Part shown: positions 3,996 to 6,870 of the stretch, piece after piece | Layout: each line of letters opens with the position of its first letter | How positions within the stretch are numbered: position 1 is the first letter of the stretch | From: an uncultured Ureaplasma sp. | GTDB lineage: Bacteria > Bacillota_I > Bacilli_A > Mycoplasmatales > Mycoplasmoidaceae | Length of the DNA: 44,878 nucleotides | Direction: 5' to 3' | NCBI GenBank assembly: GCA_902766725.1 | Contig: CACXEQ010000029.1 | Coordinates: 1 to 44,878, forward strand | The notes under the pieces: model-generated | Told to the model about the DNA's origin: nothing | What the model saw: the letters and a program-made list of their open reading frames with translations, nothing else | The model's database searches: none | Translations under genes and position numbers: made by a program

Positions 3996-4077
3996 TGTTA
4001 ATTCCTATTTATTTTAATTTGTAATTATACTTTTATTTCTTTTATTTTTTTTATGTTAATAATAACATGGGGGAATT

Positions 4078-4302
4078 ATGAAAAAATTAACAATAAAACA
4101 AAAAAATAAAATAACTGGTGGTAGTTTTTATGCTATTGCTTTAGGAATAGGAATATTAGTGAGTACTTTTTCATCTGCAATAATAAATTCAATTTCAGCC
4201 TTAAAATCTAGTAATGGTTTTACATCATATGTAAATCATCATAATGCTGTTATTAGATTATCACCTGTTCCTAGTAGAAGTTCTATATCTTTTTTTAATT
4301 AA
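4078..4302 (+). CDS. Double-glycine-leader secreted peptide (bacteriocin/pheromone-like candidate)
   Basis: This is a 74-aa ORF with a strong ribosome site (GGGGGAA, 7 nt before ATG). The N-terminus MKKLTIKQKNKITGG has the form of a double-glycine leader: charged, with hydrophobic residues at regular spacing and ending GG, followed by SFYAIALGIGILVS. The mature part would be about 59 residues: a Gly/Ser/Ala-rich hydrophobic helix, then a polar tail with HH and two prolines. Peptides of this type are cut after GG by C39-peptidase ABC transporters in Gram-positive bacteria. No such transporter or immunity gene is recognised in this window. It stands alone, divergent from ackA. An ordinary small membrane protein is the alternative; the bacteriocin-like role is inference. 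Confidence 0.55.
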   Translation: MKKLTIKQKNKITGGSFYAIALGIGILVSTFSSAIINSISALKSSNGFTSYVNHHNAVIRLSPVPSRSSISFFN

Positions 4303-4412
4303 TTTTTAATGTAGATTGATCATTTTATGATAACACTTATCAATTCATTTTATTTCTATTAAAATTTATAAAACCACACATAGTAATGTTTAGGCTACAA
4401 AACAAGATGTGT

Positions 4413-4418
4413 TATAAT
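4413..4418 (+). promoter_or_regulatory. Extended -10 promoter upstream of the 38-aa ORF
   Basis: TGTTATAAT, an extended -10 (TGnTATAAT), lies about 70 bp before the ORF at 4490 and downstream of the GG-leader peptide. It suggests that the 4490-5245 pair has its own promoter. No convincing -35 is seen. Confidence 0.45.
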
Positions 4419-4489
4419 TACTATGTTAGACATAAAATAATTAAATCATCGTTAATTAGTTTTTGTGTTTGTAGATGGGCTAATATAAA

Positions 4490-4606
4490 ATGAAATATGA
4501 TATTAAAAAATATGAGGAAATGGTAAAAAAAGCCAATGAGAGTTTTAAAAAAGAAAAAAACTCATGGATGTTTGCTAAAATAATTAAATACTTTATGGAT
4601 AAATAA
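4490..4606 (+). CDS. Small basic hypothetical protein (38 aa)
   Basis: MKYDIKKYEEMVKKANESFK is followed by a lysine- and aromatic-rich tail ending KYFMDK. The first two thirds look helical and charged. It ends with TAA directly abutting a TTG that opens the Fic/Doc-like frame at 4607, so the two would be translationally coupled. Its size and position fit a toxin-neutralising partner, but no family is recognised and the reading frame is short enough to be chance. No good Shine-Dalgarno is visible. Confidence 0.35.
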   Translation: MKYDIKKYEEMVKKANESFKKEKNSWMFAKIIKYFMDK

Positions 4607-5245
4607 TTGAAAAAAATTAGATTATTTTATTTAAAAAAAATAACTTTAGATTTTCTTAAAAAAAATTAATAATTCTCTAATTTTCAATTTAAAGTCTTAT
4701 CAAAGTGGTTTTTTAGCAAATTTTAGAAGTCATTATTATGACAATTTAACAAAAATTTATATTGAATGTGTTAATTTTTGAAAATATTGTAAAAAGGACA
4801 GTATTGAAGTCTCTAATTTTTTTATAACCATTTTGAAAGATTCCTACTTCTTTGCAAAAGATTTATCAAATGAATTTATGCCTAATTTAAATAATCAAAT
4901 CTTTTCTCAAATTCATAGTTGTATCATTAATGCATTTAATAAAACAATTTCAATAAACGAAAATATCTTTTATTTTTTATCAAATTGTTTTTTAAACATT
5001 AATGTTTTCATTTTTTATTAAATGGTAACAAACGACTAGCAATTGCAATTTTAATAAAATTACTTTATAACTTTGGGTATTATTTCAAATTCACTAATAA
5101 TGAATGAAAATCATGTAGAGATTGAGAAGAAATATCCATTTACATCATTAATGAATATTCAAGTAAACATAATAAAGAAGAAATAATTAAATTCTTATTT
5201 GATTGAATAATAAAAAACATTGTAATTACTATTAATTTTGTTTAA
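4607..5245 (+). pseudogene. Frameshifted Fic/Doc-family-like gene
   Basis: Three overlapping frame segments together make a plausible protein of about 210 aa. The first runs from TTG at 4607 (LKKIRLFYLKKITLDF). The middle segment runs in another frame to about 5008 and includes SYQSGFLANFRSHYYDNLTK. The last returns to the first frame with HFLLNGNKRLAIAIL at 5009-5053 and ends in TAA at 5243-5245. HFLLNGNKR fits the Fic/Doc active-site pattern Hx3[DN]GNKR, and the following LLYNFGYYF fits the helix after it. The frame changes fall near an A8 run (about 4660) and a T6 run (5011-5016), so homopolymer slippage, sequencing error or true decay are all possible. Fic/Doc proteins AMPylate or phosphorylate targets such as EF-Tu. 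With the frameshifts as read, the gene is broken. Confidence 0.5.
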
Positions 5246-5394
5246 ACATTATTTATTCTTAAACAATGATCAACTTATCATTTATTAATTTATGAAAACA
5301 CAATTTAAATAGCTTTAGATAATATCTAATATTTATTTTTGTATATTTGTCTATCATTTATAAATATAATATTAAATAAAATATATATATTTAA

Positions 5395-6870
5395 ATGTCG
5401 AAAAAAAATAATAAGAAAAATTCTAAGAAATCTTTTAGAAAGCCAACAAAAAAAATAACTAAAAGAATTTTTAATAAATCAACTATAACTAAAAAAATAG
5501 TAAACAAACAAAATAAGAAATCTTCAAAAAAATTAATTAAAAAAAAATCTAATAAAACAATAAAAAAAGATAATTTTAATAATTCCAAAAGAAATAAATT
5601 ATCACAAAAAACTAATTTCAAACCAAATAAAAATATTAAGAAAAGACAAGTTGTTTCCACTGAACCAAAATTTGTCCCTACTATTTTAGAATCATTTACT
5701 AAACTTAAAACAATTTCTAAATTTGAATTAGATGAAATTTTAGGAAACATTATTAAAGTTGCTAAAATTAAAAGACGAAATAGAAACCTTGTTCAATTAA
5801 AAAAAATTTTTACTTCATTTGGAAGTTATAAAATAACTGAAGTTCAACTTCAGAAAATCCTTAATGAAATTACTAGGAATGACATTAAAATAAAAGAATA
5901 TCCTAATAAAAAAATTTTTAGTCTAGATGATACTATAGAGATTCTACAACAAAATAAAGCAATCAAAATTACCAAAATTAAAGTTAAGGGTTCTCAAAAT
6001 AGTTACAATGGAATTAAAAATTTTCTAGTTAACCTTGGCCACTCAAAAATGTTAACTGCTGAACAAGAAATTTATTATTCAAAAATGTCTAAAAGTAAAA
6101 ATGAACTTGAAAAACAGCAAGGAATTAGTCAACTAGTTACTTCCAATCTTAGACTTGTAACATCTATTGCAAAACGATTTTTAAATCATGGAATTGATTT
6201 TGATGATCTTATTCAAGAAGGAACAATAGGCCTCTTAAAGGCAATTGATAAATTTGACTATAAATTAGGACATAAGTTTTCCACTTATGCTACTTGATGA
6301 ATTAGACAAGCAATAACAAGAGCAATTTCTGATCAAGCTAAAACTATTAGAATACCTGCTCATATGGTAGAAATTATTAATAGAATTTTAAAAGCTGAAA
6401 AAGAAATTCAGCAAAAAACTGGAAGAACACCAACAATTGAGGAAATAACTGAAGAATTAGGAGGAGCTGCTGCTGGTTTCACTCAACGTAAAGTTGCTAA
6501 TATTAAAAAGATTCATATTGATCCAGTTTCATTAGACAAAACAGTTGGTTCTGATGATGATAGTCAAATTGCTGACTTTGTTAAGGAGACAACATTAACC
6601 AATCCTGATAAATTTACCAAAGAAAATCTGTTAAAAGATGACATTAATCAATTATTTAAATCTTCACTAAATGAAAACGAAGAAAAAATAATTAGGATGA
6701 GATATGGATTACCGCCATATGAATACCCTCATAATTTAGATGAAGTTGCTAAAAAATTGAAAAAACCAAGAGAACACATTAGGCAAATTGAAGCCAAAGC
6801 AACAAGAAAACTAAAACATCCTTCTAAATCAAAAAGACTAAGATCATATATTTTAGATGAAGGACAATAA
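5395..6870 (+). CDS. rpoD: Primary RNA polymerase sigma factor (RpoD/SigA)
   Basis: This 491-aa sigma-70 factor directs RNA polymerase to -10/-35 promoters. Residues 1-85 are an extremely lysine-rich extension (KK and KKK runs) that replaces the acidic region 1.1 of other bacteria. Region 2 spans about 225-325, with [20 protein letters not shown] (core binding) and [18 protein letters not shown], the aromatic -10 melting and recognition motif, whose second Trp is coded by TGA. Region 3 follows with [14 protein letters not shown], and region 4 closes the protein with [12 protein letters not shown] and a helix-turn-helix ([20 protein letters not shown]) for -35 contact. It is not preceded by dnaG, the usual neighbour. 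The Nif3-like gene overlaps its 3' end. Confidence 0.95.

Follow-up and report, generated by a model that had tools for sequence, protein, structure and literature searches.

A double-glycine-leader peptide family as candidate substrate of the mycoplasma C39 protease-transporter

The precursor peptide gene in a Ureaplasma contig

We analysed a 44,878-nucleotide stretch of DNA, referred to here as the window, which is contig C29 of a 615-kb, 38-contig and 82%-complete assembly (G000) of an uncultured Ureaplasma sp. The open reading frame (ORF) at 4078–4302, on the forward strand, is a genuine gene, whose product has a leader of 15 residues that closes with a double glycine (GG). Direct reading of its 74-aa translation gave MKKLTIKQKNKITGG followed by SFYAIALGIGILVSTFSSAIINSISALKSSNGFTSYVNHHNAVIRLSPVPSRSSISFFN; the leader is followed by a hydrophobic stretch rich in Gly, Ser and Ala and the mature part contains no Cys, all as recorded in a preliminary description made from the letters of the window. 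The gene and its parts are as follows:

4078..4302, +, GG-leader precursor peptide gene, 74 aa, MPN313-like (homology, MPN313 match, and ratio of nonsynonymous to synonymous substitution rates, dN/dS, in relatives)
4069..4073, +, Shine-Dalgarno-like GGGGG, 4 nt 5′ of the ATG (direct reading)
4078..4122, +, leader MKKLTIKQKNKITGG, 15 residues, with a predicted cut by a C39 peptidase after Gly15 (Gly15 invariance in A1, A2 and A3; the cleavage is inferred)
4123..4206, +, predicted hydrophobic helix of the mature peptide, residues 16–43 (AlphaFold2 single-sequence model and hydropathy)
4255..4287, +, conserved C-terminal motif RLSPVPSRSSI (R[LMY]SPxPSRSxI recurs in much of the family)

A filter for GG leaders, which demanded a start codon with a Shine-Dalgarno site, GG at residue 12–22, a polar leader and hydrophobicity over the next 22 residues, picked this gene alone from the 44.9 kb window. 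Applied to 40 first-order Markov versions of the window, it picked nothing. All 21 of its 21 picks in 738 kb of related loci were members of the same peptide family, in a sample that is biased, since the peptide or the C39 gene was the anchor in choosing these loci. The mature peptide is cationic and amphiphilic, and the AlphaFold2 model gave one continuous helix over residues 14–43, with pLDDT (predicted local distance difference test) scores of ~90 and above for residues 21–40. Close pairs of relatives showed purifying selection on the gene, with dN/dS of 0.07–0.22 across leader, helix and tail.

Distribution of the peptide family

Homologues were found by tblastn and profiles in the genus of the window and throughout its family (81 of 95 genomes). 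They start with [MV]xxL....K....(G/A)G and continue into a hydrophobic helix. The peptide profiles were built from family members; one of them, A2, extended the reach to families f5 and f7, whose ORFs are GG-leader peptides with a tail motif of the K-[TS]-x-D-x-S-x-x-W-[DE] type instead. With profile A3, built from the f5 and f7 ORFs, the peptide was detected in 160 of the 189 genomes of the order that are at least 96% complete. Thus, the suggestion in the preliminary description that such a peptide would be unusual for a mollicute was not supported, as it is present in nearly the whole order. The cleavage-site Gly (Gly15) is invariant in both family alignments. Among 93 peptides the dipeptide at this site was GG in 69, AG in 14, VG in 6, CG in 2 and PG in 1, and a leader of 15 residues was the commonest.

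The closest named family is that of MPN313. The window peptide matched NCBIfam NF045747 (MPN313 family protein) over residues 1–53 (E 8.6e-7), with 29.3 bits against a curated equivalog cut-off of 100 bits; by this score, it is a diverged relative of the MPN313 family and not an equivalog. The model, which has no function assigned and is confined to a narrow group, matched 28 of 41 family members, reaching 130.7 bits for the member in G019, which we take to be M. genitalium. The peptide of the M. mycoides-type genome G297 scored exactly at the cut-off of TIGR03949, a class IIb bacteriocin model. Of the bacteriocin leader and peptide models in Pfam and NCBIfam, none matched the window peptide above cut-off. 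A literature search on MPN313, MPN571, MG390/MG220 and the syn3A locus tags returned nothing relevant.

The gene is usually single-copy and sits at fixed loci. In g42 and g43 the order is greA-rsmI-peptide-rplU-prp-rpmA (genes named by reading), while in the genus of the window and part of the sister genus g9 it adjoins a sigma-70-like gene. In the window its neighbours are ackA and rpoD, the latter being the following feature:

5395..6870, +, sigma-70-like (RpoD) gene marking the conserved locus in the genus of the window and part of sister genus g9 (cluster c1 adjoining the peptide; named by reading the sequence)

In the window the two genes are separated by ~1 kb that looks decayed (4386–5390), and an ORF within it (4650–5018) had no Pfam match; in G005 the two genes almost touch. 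Elsewhere in the window, 30–1619 encodes a 530-aa membrane protein with a Pro/Asn-rich tail and no Pfam match. No immunity gene was recognised beside the peptide at the examined loci, including the window, and the peptide gene lay beside the C39 gene in none of the sampled loci.

Some genera carry GG-leader peptides in tandem pairs (L101, L139, L140 and L152 in f1; L203, L205 and L221 in g40), which recall two-peptide bacteriocins. Other Bacilli (families f19 and f26) also have short GG-leader ORFs that match the profile in its leader-helix part, several of them as tandem pairs.

The C39 protein and its probable link to the peptide

The search of the genome proposed at the outset showed that it encodes exactly one ABC (ATP-binding cassette) protein with a Peptidase_C39 domain (PF03412; G000:C7:13763–14167, E 1.6e-26). 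It is a 628-aa protein (L069 5746–7638; G000:C7:13745–15637) on another contig than the peptide. The gene is therefore an orphan, as it was first called, in being unlinked to its transporter (C7 versus C29), and in no other sense. A short leader ending in a GG/GA/GS-type pair before a hydrophobic part, a C39 peptidase in the same genome and a cleavage-site Gly kept in the homologues together bear out the original assignment to the C39-type GG-leader peptides; neither of the two findings named at the outset as contradicting it was made. Domain PF03412 occurs in 82 of 95 family genomes (44 of the 46 that are at least 90% complete) and in 231 of 249 genomes of the order, mostly once per genome.

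Of what makes a functional C39 ABC exporter, the protein of the window's genome has the catalytic residues and lacks an intact nucleotide-binding domain (NBD). Its YECGVC and NHFVIC align with the catalytic Cys and His columns, occupied by Cys and His in 54 of 54 aligned proteins. The same alignment shows that the protein has lost Walker A, signature, Walker B Glu and H-loop, and ABC_tran (PF00005) was not matched in it. The NBD motifs are lost in the full-length proteins of the window's genus g1 (5/5), g9 (24/24) and the M. mycoides-type g43 (both looked at, G296 and G297), and the remaining families and genera sampled have an intact NBD. By these alignments the NBD has decayed, with intact protease residues, in at least two separate lineages, the M. 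mycoides type being separate. Here, then, the protease of a C39 transporter has outlasted its ATPase. As a separate observation, the C39-ABC frame of G006 (L088 5308–6786) stops at 493 aa and the rest of its NBD follows after 148 nt in a second frame; the gene is perhaps broken, or the assembly at fault.

In most sampled genomes the C39 gene is directly followed by a gene for a protein of 112–133 aa with one N-terminal membrane helix; in most genera this second gene overlaps the 3′ end of the first (e.g. L069, L075, L083 and L256). Of the three groups with a dead NBD, g9 and g43 lack the protein and the genus of the window keeps it. It is possibly an accessory factor; we do not claim a HlyD-type identity, since Pfam gave no match.

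Three lines of evidence connect the peptide with the C39 protein. First, the peptide was present in 160 of 178 C39-bearing genomes (including three f1 genomes found solely with profiles A1/A2) versus 3 of 11 C39-less ones (Fisher p ~6e-6, relatedness uncontrolled), and within genus g40 in 7 of 7 versus 1 of 6 (p = 0.005). Second, genus g3, in which PF03412 had no match even at E ≤ 10 (three genomes, 77–90% complete), has a leaderless peptide. Both members with a readable start, L097 5224–5439 (G016) and L138 2224–2430 (G025), begin with MWWN behind a strong Shine-Dalgarno site, AGGAAGGAG or GGAGG, and this MWWN aligns with the residues after GG in the GG|FNWW of the related G060 and G066. As the alignment reads, the leader alone was lost in g3, precisely at the mature N-terminus. 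Third, the G297 peptide stands at the cut-off of a bacteriocin model.

Proposed role, alternatives and known systems

We consider it probable that gene 4078–4302 makes a precursor for the only C39-peptidase ABC protein of the cell. The 15-residue leader would dock on the cytosolic C39 domain and be cut after Gly14-Gly15; this cleavage is strongly inferred from the sequences. The mature peptide of ~59 aa, made up of a hydrophobic helix and a polar tail whose C-terminus is conserved, would then be moved into or across the membrane. Most Mycoplasmatales would use an intact ABC ATPase and the small one-helix accessory protein for this. The degenerate NBD in the lineage of the window limits the protein there to a membrane protease, an ATP-independent insertase, or a partner of another ATPase. 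The last step is the weakest: the mature peptide would most likely serve at the membrane or cell surface as a housekeeping component rather than to kill competitors, as suggested by its dN/dS, by its presence in nearly all genomes and by its fixed places next to housekeeping genes.

Several observations weigh against this scheme. The dead NBD speaks against classical ATP-driven export in the window's lineage. Two near-complete genomes have an intact GG peptide and no full C39, namely G255, with no C39 match, and G248, with a partial one (E = 0.0014). Conversely, 18 C39-bearing genomes had no peptide match, some perhaps through limited sensitivity. The co-occurrence test ignores relatedness, its profiles come from members, and the g3 genomes are incomplete. 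The mature part is also only loosely common to f1 and f5/f7, so that common descent of the whole peptide rests on leader-helix profile matches.

Four other explanations were considered. The first is that the peptide is secreted and acts on host membranes, for membrane perturbation or nutrient release. It fits an amphiphilic and cationic peptide and the host-dependent lifestyle found throughout the order; since Pfam and NCBIfam scans gave no match to a known host-acting toxin, we regard it as unlikely.

Slightly less probable is a bacteriocin or peptide pheromone acting on, or signalling to, other bacteria, the competition or signalling device first envisaged. The GG leader, the cationic mature peptide, the G297 score, the tandem pairs in some mollicute genera and the resemblance of the leader-helix part to short tandem GG peptides of other Bacilli would all agree with it. 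On the other hand, nearly all genomes of the order have the peptide, mostly in a single copy, selection on it is purifying and not diversifying, and it occupies fixed loci by housekeeping genes with no recognised immunity gene beside it; the original proposal is thus not supported. To our knowledge, two-component receptors are largely lacking in mollicutes, which also counts against this reading.

We give the same low probability to a small membrane protein in which GG is an uncleaved helix-start motif and the C39 link is coincidental. The model's one continuous helix from residue 14 is in line with this, as are G248 and G255 and the leaderless g3 forms, which show that the mature part can be expressed without a leader. 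It is at odds with the conserved leader length and Gly, the loss exactly at GG where C39 was not found, and the co-occurrence. Least probable is another job for the C39 protein, with the peptide handled otherwise: the lipoyl-peptide role was proposed (PMC6609329) because no GG peptide was known, and one has now been found in nearly every C39-bearing genome, including the M. mycoides type.

The peptide family is likely the long-missing substrate of the mycoplasma C39 protease-transporter. Breuer et al. (2019), citing Dirix 2004, identified a candidate double-glycine peptide neither in JCVI-syn3A nor in other C39-bearing mycoplasmas, and lipoyl-peptide import and transamidation were tentatively assumed for syn3A protein 0401; thus, an unrelated role entered the minimal-cell model for want of a known peptide (PMC6609329). 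We found no later paper closing this gap in the open-licence literature. A candidate is now available in almost every C39-bearing genome of the order, including M. genitalium and M. pneumoniae (MPN313 family) and the M. mycoides type, so that the function of the transporter becomes directly testable in laboratory strains, and the uncharacterised MPN313 family is tied to a processing enzyme. We advance more tentatively, at somewhat short of an even chance, that wall-less bacteria have here an order-wide, ribosomally made housekeeping peptide for export, whose maturation is the task of a C39 protein turned into an ATPase-less membrane protease in at least two lineages. Bacteriocin-type secretion would then have become an essential-type cell-surface component, possibly also in the M. 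mycoides from which the minimal cell descends.

Among known systems, the C39 domain with its Cys and His is shared with the C39-peptidase ABC transporters PCAT1 and ComA, and the nearest solved relatives include ComA 3k8u and the AMS/PCAT double-glycine protease domain of PDB 6mpz. Unlike PCAT1 and ComA, the proteins of the window's genus, g9 and the M. mycoides type have an NBD without Walker A, Walker B and signature. The G296 and G297 proteins are probably orthologues of JCVI-syn3A 0401, which is annotated as a C39/sublancin-transporter homologue in the minimal cell (PMC6609329). With the precursors of class IIb bacteriocins (lactobin A/cerein 7B, TIGR03949) the mollicute peptide has in common a GG leader and a hydrophobic Gly-rich helix. 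The immunity gene and transporter expected in one cluster with a class II bacteriocin were not seen here, with C39 on contig C7 and the window on C29, and the mollicute peptide differs further from class IIb in its long mollicute-specific tail, its near-universality and its purifying selection.
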